A stretch of 64,000 bases of DNA from Chryseobacterium gleum (GCA_945865535.1 CAMBDW010000003.1:1-64000); one strand, 5' to 3'. Positions 1 through 11,917 are shown, numbered from the stretch's first letter. Notes: generated by a model from the letters alone, not told the origin. Program-made: numbers and translations.

Positions 1-57
1 GGTTAGAGCATCTGACTGTTAATCAGAGGGTCCTAGGTTCGAGTCCTAGAGGGGGAG
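1..57 (+). tRNA. tRNA-Asn (GTT), 5' end outside the window
   Basis: The visible part runs from the D-arm to the discriminator base. The anticodon stem-loop is TCTGA-CTGTTAA-TCAGA, giving anticodon GTT (Asn). The T-arm is CTAGG-TTCGAGT-CCTAG, and the 3' acceptor strand is AGGGGGA (50-56) with discriminator G57. CCA is not encoded. About 17 nt of the 5' end lie upstream of the window. A Rho-independent terminator follows directly, and the last acceptor bases plus that terminator are duplicated near 2116. Confidence 0.93.
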
Positions 58-192
58 CAGATTAAAAGCCTTTACAGAAATGTAAGGGCTTTTTTGTTTA
101 TACATTACAATCTAGCTTTGAGGTTCAGTTAAATACTTTCTTTTTAGAACTACAAGAGCTGAAAATAAGCACGCTTAACAAAAAGAAAATGA
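52..192 (+). repeat. Segmental duplication, copy 1 (internally deleted)
   Basis: Two blocks match copy 2 without gaps. Bases 52-99 match 2116-2163 (43 of 48 identical by my count): the last bases of tRNA-Asn plus the terminator. Bases 107-192 match 2313-2398 (76 of 86 identical): the 5' half of a lipoprotein gene. Copy 1 lacks the equivalent of 2164-2312 (149 nt), which is the 3' half of that gene. The register continues to a TAnnTTTG box at 234-241, the equivalent of the rnr promoter box at 2440-2447, although the 41 nt in between are only weakly alike. Confidence 0.85.
64..95 (+). terminator. Rho-independent terminator of tRNA-Asn
   Basis: Stem AAAAGCCTTTACA (64-76), GAAA tetraloop, TGTAAGGGC and a T6 run to 95. 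The stem pairs fully with one wobble. It sits 6 nt after the tRNA and has a near-identical copy at 2128-2159. Confidence 0.88.
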
Positions 193-213
193 AAAGACAA
201 AGTACTGACCATC
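107..213 (-). pseudogene. Decayed N-terminal fragment of the small lipoprotein gene
   Basis: Read on the minus strand, this stretch still encodes the lipoprotein signal core of the intact gene at 2184-2423: LLSVLIFSSC followed by SSKKKVFN. The frame then hits TGA at 125-127. The position equivalent to the intact gene's start codon no longer holds an ATG; the nearby ATG is in another frame. The 3' half of the gene is missing. With start lost, a stop gained and the end deleted, this is a pseudogene. The lipobox region is the best-conserved part. Confidence 0.75.
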
Positions 214-233
214 TAAAGTGAAAAAAATAATAA

Positions 234-241
234 TACTTTTG
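234..241 (+). promoter_or_regulatory. Possible -7 box (TACTTTTG) upstream of the methyltransferase gene
   Basis: It matches TAnnTTTG and sits in exact register with the rnr box at 2440-2447 relative to the duplicated blocks. I see no TTG at a 17-23 nt spacing. If used, the leader before the ATG at 332 would be about 85 nt. Confidence 0.3.
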
Positions 242-331
242 TTAAATGGAAGCGGAGTCTGGACCCACTCTAAAAAAGGGGCACATCAAAAAAAGCCTTG
301 TGATTAGGGCAATATAAAATTAAGCTATCAG

Positions 332-1264
332 ATGAACCATTCAAATGCTATCAATTGCCCGATTTGTAAAAAAGGAAGTTCTTATTATATTTCTACAAAA
401 GCATTAATGCATAAGCCAAATGATGAGCTTTATATTTTTAATATTTGTAATAATTGCGATGCAGTATTTTTAACTAATCCAGTAACCCCTGAAAGATTAG
501 AGCATTACTACACTGAAAATTATTTGCCCTATAAAGGTCCTTCAGCCTGGGGAAGGTATAGTTCATTTGTAGTTAGGAGTCAGAAAAAATTAGATTTAAG
601 CCGTGTTTGTTTTGTAAAAAAGTATCTAAACAAAACCAACTCTACTCTTACTGTTTTAGATGTAGGGTGTGGTAATCCGAGCTTTTTAGATTTTTTGGAA
701 CAAAACTCAAAAGCAAATTGTATTGGAATTGATTTTTCAGATTCGGGATGGAAAGGTAAAAGCTATACTAACATTGAACTTAAAAAAGTTTCGATTGAAG
801 ATTTTAATACAAATATACAATTTGATGTAATTACGCTATGGCATTATTTAGAGCACGATTACAACCCGGAGCAAACTATTGAAAAGCTCTATAACTGTCT
901 GAAAAAAGGAGGAAAACTAATTATTGAAGTGCCCGATTATAAAAGTATTAGTGCAAAAATTCAAAAATCATATCGGCAAGGGTGGCATAGTCCGAGACAC
1001 ATTTCATTATTAACTAAAAAAAGTTTTGCTGTTTTATTTCAAAAAGATAAATGGAAAATTACAAAGCATTTACGATATGGAACCCTTGATGCATTCACCC
1101 TTTGGTGGCTTGGCAAAATGGAAAAAAGGGGGATTGATTGGTCGGGGAATATGTCTGCTAATTTTTGGATGCTTGTGCTTTTAAAAGCGCTTACAGCTCC
1201 TATTTTTGTATTTGAAAAAATATTTCCTATGGGCATACAAATAGTGGTAGTTGAAAAAAAATAA
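332..1264 (+). CDS. Class I SAM-dependent methyltransferase with N-terminal zinc-ribbon-like motif
   Basis: 310 residues. The N-terminus carries two CxxC pairs (CPIC at about 9-12, CNNC at about 39-42), as in zinc-ribbon methyltransferases of the Methyltransf_23 type. The Rossmann motif I is VLDVGCGNPSFLDFL (about 108-122). A later LWHYLEH motif and KKGGKLIIEVPD (post-motif strand) fit the same fold. The substrate is unknown; relatives act on lipids, quinone-like compounds or sugars. It has the same architecture as the methyltransferase at 57359-58246, so the two are paralogues in this genome. It lies 44 bp upstream of the crtA-like gene in the same direction and inside the region bracketed by the tRNA-Asn duplication. 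Tailoring of a carotenoid or other lipid is an inference from that context. Confidence 0.85.
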   Translation: MNHSNAINCPICKKGSSYYISTKALMHKPNDELYIFNICNNCDAVFLTNPVTPERLEHYYTENYLPYKGPSAWGRYSSFVVRSQKKLDLSRVCFVKKYLNKTNSTLTVLDVGCGNPSFLDFLEQNSKANCIGIDFSDSGWKGKSYTNIELKKVSIEDFNTNIQFDVITLWHYLEHDYNPEQTIEKLYNCLKKGGKLIIEVPDYKSISAKIQKSYRQGWHSPRHISLLTKKSFAVLFQKDKWKITKHLRYGTLDAFTLWWLGKMEKRGIDWSGNMSANFWMLVLLKALTAPIFVFEKIFPMGIQIVVVEKK

Positions 1265-1308
1265 TCCAACTTAAAATAATACATCCATTCAAAATATAAT
1301 ACAAACTC

Positions 1309-2016
1309 ATGAATCAAATAACTACTTGTTCTTTTTTTAAATTGGAATCTTTTTCCCATAAATTTTGGGCATTTTCACAGATGCAATTAGGACATGCTCA
1401 TCTGAAAAATATTGCAGGATTAGTGTTTTACAAACTACTGGGATCGGGTGCTGAAAATGGTTTTAGTTCAAAACCAAACTTTGGTGCCTATGCATTATTA
1501 TGTATTTGGGAATCAGAAACAGATGCAACTACTTTTTTTGAAAAAAATTCATTTTTTAACAACTATAAGTCTAGAAGCTCTGAGTCATTCACTGTTTTTG
1601 CACATGCGGCAGAAGCTCATGGAAAATGGGACGGAAAGCAACCTTTTGTTTCAAATGCTACTTTGGATTTAAATAAGCCCGTAATGGTTTTAACTAGGGC
1701 TAGGATTCGGTTTTCAAAATTGATTTCTTTTTGGAGAAAAGTAGGTCAAGTAAGTAAGAGTTTAGAAAATTATGATGGCTTAGCCCTGTCCATTGGTGTT
1801 GGGGAATGGCCTTTAATCCAACAAGCTACTGTTAGTATATGGAAAACACAAGCCGAAATGCTTGATTATGCCTATAAAAATGAAAAGCATAAAGAAGTTG
1901 TTCGTCTTACCAGAAAACTCAATTGGTATAAAGAAGAACTATTTGTAAGATTTATTCCTTATAAATTTTTAGGCAAGTGGAATGGTAAAAATATTGAGCG
2001 CTTTTTAGAAGTTTAA
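1309..2016 (+). CDS. crtA: CrtA-like (spheroidene monooxygenase family) carotenoid oxygenase
   Basis: 235 residues, the usual length of the family. Features I associate with CrtA: an N-terminal FW-AFSQMQLG segment (about 19-28), KLLGSGAENGF then PNFGAYALLCIWES, a central PVMVLTRARIRFSKLISFW segment, IGVGEWPLIQQATVSIWKT, and a C-terminal WYKEELFVRFIPY. Known CrtA proteins are oxygen-dependent ketolases that introduce a C2 keto group into acyclic carotenoids such as spheroidene; in other bacteria the substrate differs. The gene follows the methyltransferase by 44 bp and probably shares its transcript. No other carotenoid gene is in the window, although dxs and dxr supply precursors. The family call is fairly firm, the substrate unknown. 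Confidence 0.72.
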   Translation: MNQITTCSFFKLESFSHKFWAFSQMQLGHAHLKNIAGLVFYKLLGSGAENGFSSKPNFGAYALLCIWESETDATTFFEKNSFFNNYKSRSSESFTVFAHAAEAHGKWDGKQPFVSNATLDLNKPVMVLTRARIRFSKLISFWRKVGQVSKSLENYDGLALSIGVGEWPLIQQATVSIWKTQAEMLDYAYKNEKHKEVVRLTRKLNWYKEELFVRFIPYKFLGKWNGKNIERFLEV

Positions 2017-2115
2017 AACTCTTTTTCAAATCTTTTTATTTATTTAATCTCTGGATTTAAAAAACAGCCGCCGCTTTGCTAACTATTTTTTTATCTTAAA
2101 TCTGATTTTGGAATT

Positions 2116-2398
2116 GGGGAGCAAAATAAAAGCCCTTACAGAAATGTAGCGGCTTTTTTGTTTTCCATTATTAACCAACTAAATTAGTCTTTCTGTTTAA
2201 ACAGCCTGCTTTTCCCTTTTTTTGATGTTCCTCCAACTTTATTTCCGTCCTTGTACAACACCAATCTCCATTTTGTTGATTTCTTTGGTTTGCCCGATTC
2301 ATCATAATCGGCACAATCTAGAGTTGAGGTTCCGTTAAATACTTTCTTTTTTGACCAACAAGAGCTGAAAATAACCACACTTAACAATAAGATAATGA
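2116..2398 (+). repeat. Segmental duplication, copy 2 (with intact lipoprotein gene)
   Basis: It contains GGGGAGCA (identical to the last acceptor bases of tRNA-Asn plus two), the terminator, and the complete small lipoprotein gene on the minus strand. No recognisable tRNA body precedes it (2050-2115). See copy 1 at 52-192 for the alignment. The two copies bracket about 2 kb carrying the methyltransferase and crtA-like genes. Confidence 0.85.
2128..2159. terminator. Bidirectional terminator between crtA-like gene and lipoprotein gene
   Basis: Stem AAAAGCCCTTACA, GAAA loop, TGTAGCGGC then T6, with one mismatch and one wobble. The A-run on the left and T-run on the right allow it to serve both convergent genes. 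It is the second copy of the tRNA-Asn terminator. Confidence 0.72.
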
Positions 2399-2423
2399 TA
2401 TGTTTGGTTTTTAAAAGTTTCAT
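2184..2423 (-). CDS. Small hypothetical lipoprotein
   Basis: 79 residues. A type II signal peptide with lipobox IFSSC puts the lipid-modified Cys at 22. The mature part is about 57 residues, Lys-rich at both ends (SKKKVF; SKKGKSRLFKQKD), with a WRLVLYKDGNKVGG stretch that looks like a beta-hairpin. I do not recognise a family. It is convergent with the crtA-like gene and divergent from rnr (start codons 35 bp apart). A broken copy lies at 107-213. Probably exported and membrane anchored; role unknown. Confidence 0.7.
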   Translation of the reverse strand: MKLLKTKHIIILLLSVVIFSSCWSKKKVFNGTSTLDCADYDESGKPKKSTKWRLVLYKDGNKVGGTSKKGKSRLFKQKD

Positions 2424-2439
2424 CAGGTAAAAATAGCAT

Positions 2440-2447
2440 TATTTTTG
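2440..2447 (+). promoter_or_regulatory. -7 box (TATTTTTG) of rnr
   Basis: Matches TAnnTTTG and ends 11 nt before the rnr ATG. No good TTG lies at the usual spacing. The implied 5' leader is only a few nucleotides. Confidence 0.5.
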
Positions 2448-2458
2448 CCCAACACTAT

Positions 2459-4591
2459 ATGAAAAAAAAGAAACAATCAAAAAATAGTAGAAATCAAGCA
2501 GGCTCAAATTCAAAATTATTTGAGTTGGTCCTCTCTGTTTTTAGAGAAAGTCCTGCTAAAAAACTGAACTACAAACAGCTCTGTAAAATTCTCAAAATTA
2601 AAGAAATGGGAGTTAAAATTCAGATGATTGAGGTGATGCAAGAAATGGAGCAATCAAAAATCTTAGAGCAATTTCAAAAAGGGTCGTACCTCCTGGTTGA
2701 AAAAATAAATAAAATTATTACCAAAATAAAAAATACCAATAATGGTGGGGCTTATGCCGAAATTGATTCAGAAAATGAAGTTTTTATCCCCAAAGAATAC
2801 AGTCAGTTTGTTTTAGCTGGAGATGAGGTAGAGGTTTTGCTTTTCCCAAAAAGAAAAGGCAAGCAAGAGGGAGAAATTGTAAGGGTTATTAAAAGAAAAA
2901 AAGAAGAATTTGTTGGTGTTATTGATAACTTTTCGTCTAACTATTTTTTAATTGCTGATGACAGGCGGGTATTTTTTGATGTTTTTTTGCCTCCTAAATC
3001 TATAAAGAGTGATTTTTTGAATAAAAAAGTACTGGTAAAAGTTGAGGGTTGGGACAGTAAGTATAAAAATCCTATTGGCAAGGTTATTAAAATTATCGGA
3101 GAGGTTGATGACCATAATACCGAAATAAATTCCATTCTTTTGGATTATGGATTTGCCCCTAAATTCCCCAAAAAAGTGGAAGAGGCCGCTAATAAAATAG
3201 AAACTGCTATTTCTAAAAAAGATCTCGAAAAAAGAATAGATATTAGAAAAACAACAACTTTTACTATTGACCCAAAAGATGCGAAAGACTTTGATGATGC
3301 CCTTTCTGTAAAAAAATTACACAGTGGAAATTGGGAAATCGGGGTCCATATTGCGGATGTATCTCATTATGTGGTTGAGGGCGGTATTATTGATAAGGAG
3401 GCTATTGAAAGAGCTACATCCGTTTATTTAGTAGATAGGGTAATTCCTATGCTTCCTGAAGTTCTTTCTAATGATCTTTGCTCTTTAAAACCAAATGTTG
3501 ACCGTTTGGCTTATTCTGTATTGTTTGAAATGGATGAGGAGGCTAATTTATTAGATTATAAAATCGCTAAAACAGTAATTCATTCTGATGTGAGGTTTAA
3601 CTACCAAAGCGCACAAGATATAATTGATACTAAAAAAGGAGAATTAGCAAGTGAGCTTCTTTTACTTGATAAATTATCGAAAATATTAAGGAAAAAGAGA
3701 GAACAAAACGGATCCATTAATTTCGAAAGCTCTGAAGTTAAATTCATTTTAGATAAAGAAAATAACCCTATTGATGTTTTTTTTAAAGAGCCCTTAGCCA
3801 CTAATCATTTAATTGAAGAGTTTATGCTTTTAGCAAATAAGACTGTGGCAAAGCATATTGGATTTTCAAAAAAAGATGCTAAACCTTTTGTTTATAGGGT
3901 TCATGACTTGCCTGATAACGATCGGATTGTGTCACTTAATAGTTTGGTGAAAAAATTTGGATATGCTATTGACAATCAAAACCCGAATAGCCTTTCAAAA
4001 TCATTAAATGCTTTGCTTAAAAATGTAAAGGGAAAAGCTGAGCAACAACTGGTAGAAACGCTAACTGTTCGCTCTATGGCAAAAGCAGTTTATACAACAC
4101 ATAATATTGGCCATTATGGGTTGGCTTTTGATTTCTATTCTCATTTTACTTCTCCTATTAGGAGATATCCCGATTTGATTGTTCACCGCTTACTAGAAAA
4201 ATACCTTAGTGGTGAAAAGTCGGCAGATAAAATAGAGCTGGAAAAAATATGTAAGCATTGCTCCGAAATGGAAAAAATAGCATCTCAAGCAGAAAGAGAT
4301 TCAATTAAGTACATGCAAATAAAATTTCTTAAAGATAAAATTGGAAAAATTTTTGAAGGAGTTATTTCTGGGGTAACCGAGTGGGGTTTATATGTGGAAC
4401 TTATAGCAAATAAATGTGAAGGCTTGGTAAAAGTTAGTAGTATAAAAGACGATCATTATATTTATGATGAAAAAAAATATACCCTAATTGGATACCGAAC
4501 AAAAGTCAGTTACCAACTAGGACAAAAAGTTAAAATTAAAATTCAAAGAGCTGACTTAGATAGAAAGCAAATGGATTTTATTTTGGTTTAA
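2459..4591 (+). CDS. rnr: Ribonuclease R
   Basis: 710 residues, typical for bacterial RNase R. It is a processive 3'-to-5' exoribonuclease that degrades structured RNA, including rRNA and mRNA hairpins. Visible parts in order: a Lys-rich N-terminus, a winged-helix-like segment (about 20-80), cold-shock/OB domains (about 85-230), the RNB catalytic domain with DPKDAKDFDDALSV (about 272-285; Asp residues that bind Mg2+) and HIADVSHYV, the signature HFTSPIRRYPDLIVHR (about 562-577), and a C-terminal S1 domain (about 628-708). The ATG is 11 nt after a TAnnTTTG box. The stop codon abuts the stop codon of the convergent T9SS gene with no gap. Confidence 0.95.
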   Translation: MKKKKQSKNSRNQAGSNSKLFELVLSVFRESPAKKLNYKQLCKILKIKEMGVKIQMIEVMQEMEQSKILEQFQKGSYLLVEKINKIITKIKNTNNGGAYAEIDSENEVFIPKEYSQFVLAGDEVEVLLFPKRKGKQEGEIVRVIKRKKEEFVGVIDNFSSNYFLIADDRRVFFDVFLPPKSIKSDFLNKKVLVKVEGWDSKYKNPIGKVIKIIGEVDDHNTEINSILLDYGFAPKFPKKVEEAANKIETAISKKDLEKRIDIRKTTTFTIDPKDAKDFDDALSVKKLHSGNWEIGVHIADVSHYVVEGGIIDKEAIERATSVYLVDRVIPMLPEVLSNDLCSLKPNVDRLAYSVLFEMDEEANLLDYKIAKTVIHSDVRFNYQSAQDIIDTKKGELASELLLLDKLSKILRKKREQNGSINFESSEVKFILDKENNPIDVFFKEPLATNHLIEEFMLLANKTVAKHIGFSKKDAKPFVYRVHDLPDNDRIVSLNSLVKKFGYAIDNQNPNSLSKSLNALLKNVKGKAEQQLVETLTVRSMAKAVYTTHNIGHYGLAFDFYSHFTSPIRRYPDLIVHRLLEKYLSGEKSADKIELEKICKHCSEMEKIASQAERDSIKYMQIKFLKDKIGKIFEGVISGVTEWGLYVELIANKCEGLVKVSSIKDDHYIYDEKKYTLIGYRTKVSYQLGQKVKIKIQRADLDRKQMDFILV

Positions 4592-6796
4592 TTATTCAAT
4601 TATAAGTTTTCTTGTTTCGCTCCAATCTTTGGTTTCAAAATTAATTTGATACATCCCTTTTGATAAAGTTGAAACATTTAAATATTCTTTATCTGAAATG
4701 TTGCTTTCTAAAACCAATCTACCATTAATATCATATATTTTAACAGTGGATTTTTCTATTAAATTTGAAATATAAACATTCTCGGTTGCTGGATTTGGAT
4801 AAATATTTATTCTATCAGGCCCATTTAAATCAATTCCAAAAGTAGAGGTTGCGCAGGCTGTATAACCCTCTGCTATTGCGTCATCAATTGAGGTTGAGGA
4901 GGCATTATCAACTCTGTTGCTATTATCTAATAACATCCCAACTATATGTATTTGTGATTGATCCCAAGAAGGATCTAAAGTAAATTCAAAACATAGGGTT
5001 TCGTAAGAGCCTGCGTAATAAGAGCTGTTTGCTAAGCTTTGTCCCATAAAAGAAGGGGCAATTCCCCTTGCAACATGGCGATAAACCATTTGTGAGGCTG
5101 GAACGTTTGGCGCTTTATTAGCCCAATCTGATCCATCAACATCAATTAAGGGGCCAGATCCACCCCCACTATAAGAGTTTGATTGATTGTATTGAGATGT
5201 GGTTCCGGTAACCGAATCTTCTACTAATACACAGGCAAATTTATAATTTCCACTTACTGGACTTGTAAAATATGCCGTTAGATTAACTTTTAAAATATTC
5301 CCAATTAACTCAGCTCCGTTTTCTATTGTCGCTTTTGGAGCAACAACAATTCGTTGTAAAAAGTCTTGTTTAAACGCGCCTGGATCAATATCTGTTCCTC
5401 TATCAACCAATCCGCTTGGATATCCAGTAATATATGGTGCTATTCCATTGTCATAATCTGGGTGAGTCATAGGATCGCCATTATGAACCGCAATCCCTTG
5501 CCAATAGCCGGCATAGTCATTATCCATCCAGTTTAATGCTACCGCTCCTCTTGGGCACCAACCACACCAAGTTCCTGTGGCCTCTTCTCCAATAACCAAT
5601 TTTCCTTCTGCCGGAACAACCGCGCTTATCTGTATTGTCATATTATCATCTGCTGGCTCGTCATCTTGGCCCAATCCATTTACATTAGACACTGTTGCCG
5701 TTCCAGGATTCGTTCCTCCAATTAAAAGTACTGAGCTAGAAAAGTCAACTTGATACACTCCTAAAGTTGGCATATTAACACCCGTGATGTTCTCTGTTAT
5801 TGTAGTTCCATTATAATTAAAATCAACATCAAAAGAGCTAATATTTGTTAGTCCTAAATTTCTTACTTCTACCGATGGATATCTATCTTGCCCGGCTACG
5901 CCTGTAATTGGCACAACTGAGGATACTTGTGCATTTAAGTTTTCTAAAACTGCTGGGGTATAAGAATAACATACATCATCTACATAAAATTGATGGCCTG
6001 CAATAGGGTATAGATCTAATGAAGCTATCTTATTTACTGTATTTGAAAAAGATCCTTGTGATACTCCATTAATAAATACTTCCCAGTTATTATTGGTTAA
6101 ATCACAAATTAACTCTAATTCAAACCATTGTCCTTGAGGATATGTCGTGGTTAAAAAAACAGTTGCTCCTCCTCCATTTTCAAACGAAACATTTCCAAAA
6201 GCGTCCATCTGTACATCTAAACTCCAAGTTATTCCAGGAGTGTTCTCTGCTTGAAAATTAAAATAGGCTCCTGTTCCGCTATTTACATAAAACATGGATG
6301 AAAATTCAAATACTCCTAATGTAAAAGGTGTCCCTACACCAAAAGGTAAAACAACATCTTGAGCTCCTTGAGTTGCTCCTGAAAATAAATAAAGTGAGTT
6401 TGTTCCACTATAAGACATACTATTAACAACATTGGCATCATCTGCAAAAGGAGCGGATGTTCCACTCATTAATTCTCCCCAAGTGTTCCAATTAGGGGCA
6501 GTTACGGCTATAGGATTGCCATTTTGATAAGAATCAAAATTATCACACACCATTGTTGGTGGAGGTGTAACAGAACAAATTCCTGAAGCAGGAAGAGGTG
6601 TCCATGAAGTTACTCCTCCTGAAACTTGTGCAAAACAATCATTACTATAAATAACACCATTACAGCCACAAACTGGATCATATTGCATAGTGCAAAATGC
6701 TGTTGGATCTATTAATGAACTGTCTACGCAAGAAGTTTGAGCATTTGATGTTCCTAAAAATAAAACTCCTACTAGTATTTTAAATATTTTTTTCAT
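4592..6796 (-). CDS. T9SS cargo protein: Kazal-like motif, Omp28-type thioredoxin-like domain, type A sorting signal
   Basis: 734 residues with a signal peptide (about 1-19, ending SNA). A short Cys-rich Kazal-like motif follows (about 36-60: CTMQYDPVCGCNGVIYSNDC). Residues about 85-280 look like a beta-sandwich (LamG-like), and about 285-395 like a CARDB-type beta domain. Next comes an Omp28-like domain with a thioredoxin-type CGWC (about 410-413) in ATGTWCGWCPRG. The end (about 665-734) is a T9SS type A signal: INIYPNPATENVYI through KLIIE. It is predicted to cross the outer membrane by the T9SS and be surface attached or released. Its start faces a 553-bp AT-rich gap. The function of Omp28-like proteins is not established; disulfide chemistry is possible. 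Confidence 0.85.
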   Translation of the reverse strand: MKKIFKILVGVLFLGTSNAQTSCVDSSLIDPTAFCTMQYDPVCGCNGVIYSNDCFAQVSGGVTSWTPLPASGICSVTPPPTMVCDNFDSYQNGNPIAVTAPNWNTWGELMSGTSAPFADDANVVNSMSYSGTNSLYLFSGATQGAQDVVLPFGVGTPFTLGVFEFSSMFYVNSGTGAYFNFQAENTPGITWSLDVQMDAFGNVSFENGGGATVFLTTTYPQGQWFELELICDLTNNNWEVFINGVSQGSFSNTVNKIASLDLYPIAGHQFYVDDVCYSYTPAVLENLNAQVSSVVPITGVAGQDRYPSVEVRNLGLTNISSFDVDFNYNGTTITENITGVNMPTLGVYQVDFSSSVLLIGGTNPGTATVSNVNGLGQDDEPADDNMTIQISAVVPAEGKLVIGEEATGTWCGWCPRGAVALNWMDNDYAGYWQGIAVHNGDPMTHPDYDNGIAPYITGYPSGLVDRGTDIDPGAFKQDFLQRIVVAPKATIENGAELIGNILKVNLTAYFTSPVSGNYKFACVLVEDSVTGTTSQYNQSNSYSGGGSGPLIDVDGSDWANKAPNVPASQMVYRHVARGIAPSFMGQSLANSSYYAGSYETLCFEFTLDPSWDQSQIHIVGMLLDNSNRVDNASSTSIDDAIAEGYTACATSTFGIDLNGPDRINIYPNPATENVYISNLIEKSTVKIYDINGRLVLESNISDKEYLNVSTLSKGMYQINFETKDWSETRKLIIE

Positions 6797-7349
6797 AATT
6801 TTAAGTTTTAAATAAAGGTTAAAAATAAATAAAAATTTTTAATTAAATATTTTAATTAACTATAAAGTATATAAAATATAATTATTGTTAATTTTTAAAC
6901 TTTAAAAAAATAATTAATATATATAAGTGTTAACTTGGTTTATAAATAAAAAGAGAATTATTAGTTTATATTAAATATTAAAATTAATTAACATTATTTT
7001 GATTTAATAGTTTATTAGTTATTTTTAATTATCAGTCACTTATAATATATGTTAACCAAAAATAATAATTGTTTATAAGCTAAATTAACAACTTTTGTTT
7101 AATAAATAGTATTATTTTTACAAGCAATAAAAGTTAATAAAGACACTTAAAAATAAAATATAAAAAACAATAAAAATATTTGACTTAAAATTTTGTTGTG
7201 GGCTTAGTTTTTAAAAATAAAAACAATAGGGTAGTTGTTGTTTTTTGTTAACTATTTATAAACAAAAATAAAAAGATATTTATTAATAACTTAATAGAAA
7301 CAACTAGAGTAAAAAATACAACTACTAACACACTGTTAAAATAAAAAAA
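6797..7349. other. Very AT-rich intergenic gap between divergent genes
   Basis: 553 bp with no open frame of note. By my count 65 of 480 bases from 6841 to 7320 are G or C (about 14%), far below the flanking genes. It holds long A and T runs and several TTAAC/GTTAA words. I found no tRNA, no convincing hairpin terminator, no clear TAnnTTTG box near either start codon and no cluster of DnaA boxes. It must contain the promoters of the T9SS cargo gene and rpiB. Confidence 0.6.
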
Positions 7350-7781
7350 ATGAAAATAGGTCTAGCGTGCGATCATGCAGGATTTGAATTCAAAGAACAA
7401 TTAAAAAATTATTTATCTAGTAAAGGTAATGAAATAAATGATTATGGCTGTTATTCTTTAGAGAGTGTTGATTATCCATATTTTGCACATAGATTAGCCG
7501 AAAGTATTGAAAAAGGAGAAAATAAATTGGGAATTCAATTTTGTGGAACCGGTAATGGAATTAATATGAGCGCCAATAAACACCAGGGTATTAGAGCGGC
7601 ACTTTGTTGGAATACTCATATTGCTGAGCAGGCTAGATTACATAATAACGCCAACATACTTACTATGCCATCAAGACATTTAAATTGGGATGAGGTAGAA
7701 AAAATTGTAGACACTTTTTTAAGTACCAATTTTGAAGGAGGAAGGCATGAAGCTAGAGTAAATAAAATTAAAATAATCTAA
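7350..7781 (+). CDS. rpiB: Ribose-5-phosphate isomerase B
   Basis: 143 residues, full length for the RpiB/LacAB family. It interconverts ribose 5-phosphate and ribulose 5-phosphate in the pentose phosphate pathway. The N-terminus has IGLACDHAGFE (substrate-binding Asp-His pair), then VDYPYFA, FCGTGNGINMSANK with the catalytic Cys in the position of the E. coli enzyme's Cys66, and RAALCWNTHIAEQARLHNNANIL, the usual C-terminal signature. It is cytoplasmic. The next gene starts 27 bp downstream in the same direction but has its own TAnnTTTG box, so it may be transcribed separately. Confidence 0.95.
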   Translation: MKIGLACDHAGFEFKEQLKNYLSSKGNEINDYGCYSLESVDYPYFAHRLAESIEKGENKLGIQFCGTGNGINMSANKHQGIRAALCWNTHIAEQARLHNNANILTMPSRHLNWDEVEKIVDTFLSTNFEGGRHEARVNKIKII

Positions 7782-7796
7782 CCTCACAAAAACTTA

Positions 7797-7804
7797 TAGT
7801 TTTG
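7797..7804 (+). promoter_or_regulatory. -7 box (TAGTTTTG) of the M28 peptidase gene
   Basis: The G of the box is 4 nt before the ATG at 7809. By comparison with the tRNA-Arg promoter (57074-57102) this implies a leaderless transcript. No TTG at the expected spacing. Confidence 0.45.
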
Positions 7805-7808
7805 TAAA

Positions 7809-8837
7809 ATGAACAAACTTCTTTTTTTATTTCTTTTTCTCCCATCAGTTTTAATTGCTCAAGAAAATATAAAATATGCCGAAACTATTGTTGTTGAAGA
7901 CCTACAAAGACACCTTTATATTTTAGCTTCCGACTCTTTAGAGGGAAGAGAAACGGGCCAAAAAGGACAAAAAATGGCAGCAGATTATATTATGAACCAT
8001 TTTAAAAATATTGGAATTCCTCCTTATAAAGACAATACCTATTACCAGAAATTTACAGTAAAATCAGATAGGCATTTTTGTAAGTGTTCGGATTGCGATA
8101 GTGATTTTATAAAACAGCTTTTTGGAAAAAATAGATTTGTAAAAGGAGAAAATGTATTGGGCTTTATTCAGGGAAGCGACTTAAAAGAAGAACTCATTAT
8201 TATCACCGCTCATTACGACCATTTAGGAAAACACGATAGCCTGCTTTTTAATGGAGCAGATGATAATGGCTCTGGAACAGCAGCCGTTATGGAAATAGCA
8301 GAAGCATTTATGCTGGCAAAAAAAGAAGGAAAAGGCCCCAGAAGATCAGTGCTTATTATGCCCGTTTCAGGAGAAGAAAAAGGACTTTTAGGAAGCAAGT
8401 ATTATACCGACAATCCTATTTACCCCCTTAAAAAAACTGTTGCCAACCTAAATATTGACATGATTGGAAGGTTAGATGATTTTCATGCTACCCCCGACTA
8501 TGTATATTTAATTGGAGCAGATAAGTTAAGTCAAGAATTGCACGATATTAGTGAGCAGATAAATAAAGAATATATAGGCTTAAATCTGGACTATACTTTT
8601 AACTCGAAGGATGATCCAAACAAGTTTTATTACCGATCAGATCACTATAATTTTGCCAAAAATAATATTCCTGTAATTTTCTACTTTAATGGAGTACATG
8701 ACGATTATCACAAAGTAACAGATACGGTTGAAAAAATAGATTTTCAAAAAATAGAAACGATTACTCGCTTAGTATTTTTAACTGCCTGGGAGCTTGCAAA
8801 TAGAGACCAGCGAATAGATGTAGATAAAATAAAATAA
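7809..8837 (+). CDS. Secreted M28 family zinc aminopeptidase
   Basis: 342 residues with a signal peptide (about 1-17, ending LIAQ). The M28 metal ligands are visible in order: HYDHLG (about 135-140), GADDNGSG (about 149-156), SGEEKGLLGS (about 188-197), NIDMIGR (about 216-222) and RSDHYNF (about 276-282). Such enzymes use two zinc ions to remove N-terminal residues from peptides in the periplasm or outside the cell. A four-Cys stretch (KCSDCDS region, about 92-99) is an insertion near the start of the domain. It is probably involved in peptide scavenging. Confidence 0.92.
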   Translation: MNKLLFLFLFLPSVLIAQENIKYAETIVVEDLQRHLYILASDSLEGRETGQKGQKMAADYIMNHFKNIGIPPYKDNTYYQKFTVKSDRHFCKCSDCDSDFIKQLFGKNRFVKGENVLGFIQGSDLKEELIIITAHYDHLGKHDSLLFNGADDNGSGTAAVMEIAEAFMLAKKEGKGPRRSVLIMPVSGEEKGLLGSKYYTDNPIYPLKKTVANLNIDMIGRLDDFHATPDYVYLIGADKLSQELHDISEQINKEYIGLNLDYTFNSKDDPNKFYYRSDHYNFAKNNIPVIFYFNGVHDDYHKVTDTVEKIDFQKIETITRLVFLTAWELANRDQRIDVDKIK

Positions 8838-10384: not shown

Positions 10385-11917
10385 CTACAAATCAAACTTT
10401 ATTCCTTGTGCCAAGGGTAATTCTGAAGTGTAATTAATAGTATTGGTTTGTCGTCTCATATAAATTTTCCAAGCATCAGAGCCACTTTCCCTTCCTCCGC
10501 CAGTTTCTTTATCCCCTCCAAAAGCACCACCAATCTCAGCCCCACTAGTTCCAATATTCACATTTGCAATACCACAATCAGATCCCGCTGTAGACAAAAA
10601 CTTTTCAGCCTCTCTTAAATTGTTAGTCATAATTGCAGATGAAAGTCCCTGTTTTACTCCATTTTGGATTTCAATAGCCTCTTCCAAATCAGTATACTTC
10701 ATAAGGTATAAAATAGGGGCAAAGGTTTCTTCTTGGACTATCTCATAATGGTTTTCAGCCTCAATAATTACCGGTTTTACATAACAACCACTTTCGTATC
10801 CACTTCCTTTTAAAACCCCGCCCTCAACCAAAACTTTTCCTCCTTCTGATTTCGCTTTTTCTATAGCACTTAAATACATTTCTACTGCCATTTTATCAAT
10901 AAGCGGGCCCACATGATTGTTTTCATCTAAAGGATTTCCTATGCGTAATTGAGTATAGGCAGATGCTAGTTTATTTTTCACCTTATCATAAATAGATTCA
11001 TGAATTATTAGTCTTCTTGTGGAAGTACATCTTTGCCCGCAAGTACCAACAGCCCCAAATAAAGCCCCAATAATGGTAATTTCTAAATCAGCCTCCGGAG
11101 TAATAATAATAGCGTTATTTCCTCCTAATTCTAACAAAGATTTACCAAATCGTTTAGCCACCTCACTTCCTACAATTCTTCCCATTCTTGTTGATCCTGT
11201 GGCCGAAATTAAAGGAAGCCTGTCATCTGAGGTCATCATTTCGCCAACTGTATAATCACCATTTATAATACACGAAATACCATCAGGCAAATTATTTTCT
11301 TTAGCAACTTCATTCCAAATATTTTGACAAGCAACACCGCATAAAGGGGCTTTTTCGGAAGCTTTCCAAACACATGTATCACCACAAATCCAAGCTAAAG
11401 CTGAGTTCCAATTCCATACTGCAACTGGGAAGTTAAAGGCAGAGATAATTCCCACAACACCAAGAGGATGGTATTGTTCGTACATTCTATGTCCAGGCCT
11501 TTCGGAGTGCATGGTAAGTCCGTGTAATTGACGAGACAAACCAACTGCAAAATCACAAATATCAATCATTTCCTGCACCTCTCCAAGCCCTTCTTGTAGT
11601 GATTTTCCCATTTCGAAAGACACCAACTCTCCTAAAGGCTGTTTGTAGCGCCTTAATTTTTCGCCATATTGGCGAACTATTTCACCTCTTAATGGGGCAG
11701 GCTTTAGTCGCCACTCTTTAAAAGCTGATGAAGCGGCCTGAAGCACTTTTTCATATTCTTCTGAAGTAGTCTGGGTAACAGAGCCAATTACTGACCCATC
11801 AACTGGAGACAAAGAATCAATTCTTTTTCCTGCGCCAAAAGATTCTGAGCCAATTGAGGTTCCGTTGTTGGTTTTGGTAACACCTAATAATTCTAGAGAT
11901 TTTTTAATATCGATCAT
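10385..11917 (-). CDS. Aldehyde dehydrogenase, ALDH7 (alpha-aminoadipic semialdehyde dehydrogenase-like)
   Basis: 510 residues, the length of ALDH7A1/AmaB enzymes. The catalytic Glu is in LELGGNNAI (about 263) and the nucleophilic Cys in GTCGQRCTSTRR (about 293-298). The C-terminal signature NVNIGTSGAEIGGAFGGDKETGGGRESGSDAWKIYMRRQTNTINYT is typical of ALDH7 and separates it from other aldehyde dehydrogenases. ALDH7 enzymes oxidise alpha-aminoadipic semialdehyde (piperideine-6-carboxylate) in lysine breakdown with NAD+, and act on a range of aldehydes. It is the last gene of the minus-strand run after rseP (64 bp gap). The family is clear, the physiological substrate inferred. Confidence 0.88.
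   Translation of the reverse strand: MIDIKKSLELLGVTKTNNGTSIGSESFGAGKRIDSLSPVDGSVIGSVTQTTSEEYEKVLQAASSAFKEWRLKPAPLRGEIVRQYGEKLRRYKQPLGELVSFEMGKSLQEGLGEVQEMIDICDFAVGLSRQLHGLTMHSERPGHRMYEQYHPLGVVGIISAFNFPVAVWNWNSALAWICGDTCVWKASEKAPLCGVACQNIWNEVAKENNLPDGISCIINGDYTVGEMMTSDDRLPLISATGSTRMGRIVGSEVAKRFGKSLLELGGNNAIIITPEADLEITIIGALFGAVGTCGQRCTSTRRLIIHESIYDKVKNKLASAYTQLRIGNPLDENNHVGPLIDKMAVEMYLSAIEKAKSEGGKVLVEGGVLKGSGYESGCYVKPVIIEAENHYEIVQEETFAPILYLMKYTDLEEAIEIQNGVKQGLSSAIMTNNLREAEKFLSTAGSDCGIANVNIGTSGAEIGGAFGGDKETGGGRESGSDAWKIYMRRQTNTINYTSELPLAQGIKFDL

Follow-up and report, generated by a model that had tools for sequence, protein, structure and literature searches.

A Flavobacteriaceae-type methyltransferase-crtA pair and a duplicated host segment at a tRNA-Asn integration hotspot

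The window, the whole 64,000-nt stretch of DNA analyzed here, starts at the end of host contig C3 (G000:C3:1), and the tRNA at its beginning is visible only from tRNA position 18 onwards. Incomplete at the contig end, this tRNA was not called by ARAGORN. It is followed by a terminator, the remains of a small lipoprotein gene, a methyltransferase gene and a crtA-type gene, beyond which a second copy of the terminator and an intact lipoprotein gene precede rnr (Table 1). We note that the intact lipoprotein gene, divergent from rnr, is kept at the same place across the host's family; its product carries a C-terminal K-x-x-KGKSRLF-like motif and matched no Pfam or NCBIfam family.

Table 1. Features at the left end of the window, in nucleotides from its first base.
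Positions	Strand	Feature
1-57	+	3' part of tRNA-Asn(GTT), from tRNA position 18 to 74; most likely the original 3' half, now displaced (attR side)
52-99	+	Copy 1, repeat block 1: tRNA-Asn end (final 6 nt) and rho-independent terminator
107-192	-	Copy 1, repeat block 2: small-lipoprotein pseudogene fragment, codons 10-37, with in-frame stop and deleted 3' half
193-311		Junction DNA (~120 bp) that separates the lipoprotein relic from the foreign block and has no clear source; the insert's left edge lies here or at ~312
312-2115	+	Block gained by horizontal transfer: the final two genes of a Flavobacteriaceae carotenoid operon with ~100 bp of 3' flank
332-1264	+	SAM-dependent methyltransferase gene (Methyltransf_23), foreign; 73-79% amino-acid identity to the methyltransferase beside crtA in Flavobacteriaceae
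1309-2016	+	CrtA-type carotenoid oxygenase gene, foreign; probably a flavobacterial carotenoid 2-hydroxylase (CrtA-OH type)
2116-2163	+	Copy 2, repeat block 1: GGGGAG of the tRNA 3' end and terminator; right junction of the foreign block
2184-2423	-	Intact gene for a 79-aa lipoprotein, kept next to rnr throughout the host's family; contains copy 2 of block 2 (2313-2398)
2459-4591	+	rnr (ribonuclease R), the hotspot's conserved anchor on the right

Two gap-free repeat blocks, claimed in a first-pass annotation of the window, are present exactly as given there: 52-99 matches 2116-2163 at 43 of 48 nt (90%), and 107-192 matches 2313-2398 at 76 of 86 nt (88%). Both repeats are far beyond chance. 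Positions 1-260 align with the copy-2 region with a best ungapped score of 61, compared to at most 15 in 300 dinucleotide shuffles, and for block 1 by itself the score is 35.5, the shuffles reaching no more than 12. Block 1 had been described as starting within the tRNA end and holding its terminator, and both copies do contain the final 6 nt of the tRNA together with a stable terminator hairpin (-16.3 and -12.1 kcal/mol in the two copies). The same annotation considered the lipoprotein gene of copy 1 to have lost its start, gained a stop and been deprived of its 3' half. The stop (GGA to TGA, in frame) and the absence of ~150 bp of the 3' half are both evident, while the start may have been frame-shifted away rather than lost. 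The suggestion that copy 1 left a promoter at 234-241 is not supported statistically, since positions 193-243 are not significantly similar to the promoter region of copy 2 (an equally good match to 2399-2450 arises in 114 of 2000 shuffles); TAnnTTTG is present in both. Positions 193-311 may include a degenerate version of the promoter region of rnr, at a similarity short of significance.

Identity between the lipoprotein copies is 88%, whereas copy 2 shares no more than ~79% with its counterpart in any other genus; of the two, copy 1 is consistently the more distant from the relatives. We therefore place the duplication firmly within the lineage, in the host's own branch or a close sister, with copy 1 decaying afterwards.

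Between the copies, positions ~312-2063 are 84-86% identical over 1.7 kb of DNA (blastn) to the terminal part of a carotenoid operon of Flavobacteriaceae, which is present in Flavobacterium, Polaribacter and others and comprises genes for a crtI/crtD-type desaturase and a cruF-type protein, crtZ, the methyltransferase gene and crtA. The window CrtA is 85-89% identical to the CrtA that follows crtZ (and in many genomes also the methyltransferase) in flavobacterial operons, and it groups in a Flavobacteriaceae clade (100/100), apart from the CrtAs of the host's own family. The latter, encoded in 5 of the 51 other genomes of that family searched, are only ~42% identical to it. The methyltransferase was found in no genome of the host's family searched, the best homologue reaching 33%. 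As judged from these sequence comparisons, the block is of Flavobacteriaceae origin, which supports the earlier view of the pair as an insertion between the two copies. In the best matches, weak similarity to a donor-type 3' flank persists up to 2113-2118, which places the right junction at the GGGG of the displaced tRNA end. The left edge is less sharp, donor similarity beginning at ~312. The block holds two genes only, and its own integrase is absent.

Against NF045923 (CrtA / spheroidene monooxygenase), the window CrtA scores 222 bits, below the NCBIfam equivalog cut-off of 300 bits. By sequence clade and operon context it belongs with the flavobacterial CrtA-OH carotenoid 2-hydroxylases, and a flavobacterial enzyme of its family has been described as a carotenoid 2-hydroxylase (PMC11855829). 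The window enzyme is thus probably a CrtA-OH-type carotenoid 2-hydroxylase. The host encodes further candidates for carotenoid synthesis, namely a phytoene synthase (crtB), two desaturases (crtI, crtD), a cruF-type protein, a lycopene cyclase and a crtZ-type ORF, and the imported oxygenase therefore has a plausible substrate; it probably completes a myxol-type branch in the host. Our guess is that the methyltransferase methylates the hydroxyl made by CrtA.

In the host's family the locus follows a conserved order: pyk-rnc-fabF-purN-rnhA-pfkB, tRNA-Asn, a variable interval, the lipoprotein gene on the opposite strand, and rnr. Nothing substantial lies between the tRNA terminator and the lipoprotein gene in eight genomes (G005, G012, G013, G015, G023, G024, G068 and G069). 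These are relatives of the very kind that had been proposed as support for insertion, with tRNA-Asn beside a single lipoprotein gene and rnr, and without the two genes. The postulated original order (tRNA-Asn, terminator, lipoprotein gene, rnr) is thus seen, but the history is more complicated: a two-component-type propeller gene sits between tRNA and lipoprotein gene in eleven genomes (G004, G006, G009, G010, G021, G028, G029, G034, G061, G065 and G070), many close relatives included, and its loss may have given the host its compact order. Further occupants of the interval include a photolyase and an iron-type ABC transporter, among others, in G025, an acyltransferase-type group in G004, a wecA-like gene in G003 and type I restriction-modification genes in G027; names not backed by a family search were assigned by eye. 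Five assemblies (G016, G066, G072, G073 and G074) end at tRNA-Asn, just beyond pfkB. The interval from pfkB/tRNA-Asn(GTT) to the lipoprotein gene and rnr is an integration hotspot of the host's family.

Nearly all relatives searched have one tRNA-Asn, and an extra fragment is present only in the host and in G027. Among the relatives' rnr-side intervals, no second tRNA 3' end stood clearly above shuffles except that of the host (G000), the G027 fragment having come from the tRNA search. The only same-genus genome (G001, 67% complete) is without rnr and pfkB, and leaves window positions 1-8000 unmatched beyond one 62-bp stretch. In two genera, represented by G029 (L049) and G009 (L053), a terminator and a small membrane-protein ORF, absent from the intervening relatives, lie directly behind tRNA-Asn, which suggests a shared or repeated insertion.

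An intact tRNA-Asn (ARAGORN) is located beside pfkB on host contig C6 (105785-105859). A tyrosine-integrase gene (C6:106020-107000) begins 160 bp after it and encodes 327 aa up to the contig end, with Phage_int_SAM_5 above its cut-off, Arm-DNA-bind_5 just below, and the catalytic C-terminus off the contig. By synteny with the relatives, the C6 end adjoins the window, the conserved locus being split between C6 and C3 in the host. Given this synteny, the orientation of the tRNA fragment in the window matches that of the C6 tRNA-Asn, and its 5' part lies beyond the contig end. The fragment is 58/58 identical to the tRNA-Asn of close relatives; it differs from the intact C6 tRNA by 3 mismatches, all in the 3' half, and it is the C6 3' half that differs from all close relatives. 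These differences fit integration in the anticodon arm, which predicts a new 3' half supplied by the element and a displaced old half. From the intact C6 tRNA-Asn with its different 3' half and the integrase directly after it, we infer an integrative element between C6 and the window, across the contig gap. The “tRNA” at 1-57 is then probably a displaced fragment of a tRNA-Asn split by this element.

No contig bridging C6 and C3 was found in the host genome, and no overlapping contig among the host contigs examined holds the rest of the element. Only synteny and att logic connect C6 with C3, the body of the element being absent from the bin. An integrase sought upstream of the window is thus indeed found, directly after the intact C6 tRNA-Asn, but it belongs to a second, separate insertion upstream of copy 1 and is not demonstrably the carrier of the methyltransferase-crtA pair. 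No relative of this integrase turned up among viral contigs, and phage records, from isolates and metagenomes alike, yielded only distant Bacteroides-type integrases (up to ~32%).

The same signature is seen in G027, an independent instance of integration at tRNA-Asn. Here, the intact tRNA-Asn is followed by hsdM/hsdS on contig C23, while contig C15 carries hsdR, a gene for a schlafen-AlbA protein, an integrase gene and a 50-nt tRNA fragment, and then the ancestral flank with rnr. The island is complete except for this one contig gap (C23/C15), and its terminal repeat (90/92 bp) starts at tRNA position 26 and includes the terminator. In G004 (L063, G004:C1:1-15000), a 45-aa C-terminal relic of a G027-type integrase (10792-10926, minus strand; 93% identical) lies beside the acyltransferase-type cargo. 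A phage contig from a public collection (L275, IMGVR_UViG_3300025133_001168) has an integrase directly beside a truncated tRNA-Asn that matches the acceptor end of the tRNA of the host's family and is read as attP; we regard it as a candidate phage of these bacteria.

Taken together, we favor stacked insertions at tRNA-Asn, an imported carotenoid pair and a younger integrase element, with a duplicated flank (probability roughly 0.8). On this view, tyrosine-integrase elements repeatedly enter the hotspot, each splitting the tRNA gene and rebuilding it with its own copy of the 3' half. In the older insertion, a 1.8-kb piece of a Flavobacteriaceae carotenoid operon, with the methyltransferase and the CrtA-OH-type oxygenase, would have entered at the very 3' end of the tRNA. 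The same event, or a linked tandem duplication, would have doubled the host segment of tRNA end, terminator and lipoprotein gene, and the tRNA-proximal copy would then have decayed. In the younger insertion, the integrase-bearing element would have entered that tRNA again, in the anticodon arm. The left end of this element, with intact tRNA and integrase gene, would be what ends C6, and its right end the fragment at 1-57. The insertion at the hotspot, like the foreign origin of the pair, is firm, and the first-pass interpretation as a whole proves right in substance, given the relatives with compact order, the integrase at tRNA-Asn and the foreign genes. The junction of C6, element and C3 across the assembly gap, the order of events and the targeting of the tRNA by the carotenoid insertion are the steps that we infer.

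Several observations run against the favored reading: the integrase element is missing from the bin, the methyltransferase-crtA insert brings no integrase, its left edge (193-311) has no clear source, plain site-specific integration would not duplicate ~340 bp of host flank, and copy 2 retains only 6 nt of the tRNA, compared to an att repeat in G027 that reaches back to tRNA position 26. Two routes to the duplication fit: (a) a circle carrying flank from an aberrant excision re-entered at the tRNA end, or (b) one copying event re-entered upstream at the GGGG microhomology. Route (b) touches on a rival for the methyltransferase-crtA segment, to which we give somewhat less than even odds, namely a template-switching or illegitimate event in which the tRNA end is coincidental, no integrase takes part and the duplication is a by-product of backward re-entry at GGGG. 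One such step accounts for the doubled flank from terminator to lipoprotein start, a GGG(G) at the right junction is common to donor-like flank and tRNA end, and the insert lacks integrase and att core; yet no more than 6 nt separate the right junction from a tRNA 3' end, and this tRNA gene is demonstrably targeted by integrases in the host genome and in the family. It is unlikely, in our estimate, that the pair is an integrase-less mini-island served by an integrase in trans, with 52-99 and 2116-2163 as att sites and host flank caught in an earlier aberrant excision. Its 48-bp boundary repeat holds only those 6 nt of tRNA and the terminator, the latter being part of the G027 repeat too. If true, the host-gene piece of the mini-island would be the signature of an earlier residence at the same site.

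The remaining alternatives concern the arrangement as a whole. C6 and C3 could carry two unrelated tRNA-Asn genes, with synteny broken by rearrangement rather than by an inserted element, as the missing bridge between them would allow; we consider this very unlikely with a single tRNA-Asn at the site in nearly all relatives, the only other extra copy being the fragment that flanks the G027 island, with an integrase directly after the C6 tRNA, and with tRNA halves swapped as integration predicts. That the first ~2.1 kb of the contig are a chimera of host and contaminant DNA is highly improbable. The feature does lie at a contig end of a metagenome-type assembly, but a chimera requires two independent joins, with the host-derived copy 1 to the left and host DNA to the right of the foreign block; moreover, the closest donor sequence found was no more than 86% identical and contamination is estimated at 0.28%. 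Scarcely credible is an ancient arrangement, with both copies and both genes ancestral and lost in relatives. The family-type crtA genes speak for it, but their distance from the window crtA in its Flavobacteriaceae clade, the lack of the methyltransferase in the family and the repeat copies, closer to each other than to any relative, already contradict it.

On the favored reading, one tRNA-Asn is where genes are exchanged throughout a family of Bacteroidota with small genomes, the cargo ranging from type I restriction-modification (defence) to transport/photolyase, polysaccharide-type and pigment genes. A pigment-modifying gene pair has moved from one bacterial family to another, and one of its junctions is located to within a few bases; the hotspot also shows why assemblies of these organisms break there.

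The locus is an ordinary but unusually well-resolved case of tRNA-targeted gene exchange of the Islander type, and establishes no new kind of system. Similarly to Islander tDNA islands (PMC4383910), among which stacked islands at one tRNA are known, the proposed C6-window element has an intact tRNA at one end, what is probably a displaced 3' fragment at the other, a tyrosine integrase inside and an anticodon-arm core, cargo lying between the ends in such islands. It differs from them in being recovered as two ends only, on separate contigs, and not as contiguous sequence from tRNA to fragment; the methyltransferase-crtA segment differs in having no integrase and in a boundary repeat that takes in just the final 6 nt of the tRNA, along with the terminator and duplicated host genes. 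According to Islander (PMC4383910), no integrases other than those of the tyrosine type are known to target tRNA genes. On another host contig (G000:C27, L092:6123-7679, minus strand), a gene for a large serine recombinase (Resolvase, Recombinase and Zn ribbon), with a MerR-like gene beside it, overlaps with its 3' end the 3' end of tRNA-Leu(taa) (6057-6142) by ~20 nt.

Compared to the flavobacterial myxol-type cluster with CrtA-OH (PMC11855829), the window CrtA is of the same CrtA family and the host has candidates for the other enzymes, whereas the methyltransferase is not part of the cluster characterized there. Unlike the flavobacterial operon type, only its last two genes were transferred, and they stand alone at a tRNA. 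In broad outline, the host also resembles carriers of tycheposons, the flexible genomic islands of streamlined aquatic bacteria (PMC10872708), in its small aquatic-type genome, tRNA-anchored site and tyrosine recombinase, and the hotspot resembles them in its metabolic and defence cargo and high turnover. The site in the host is tRNA-Asn, in contrast to the tRNAs described for tycheposons.
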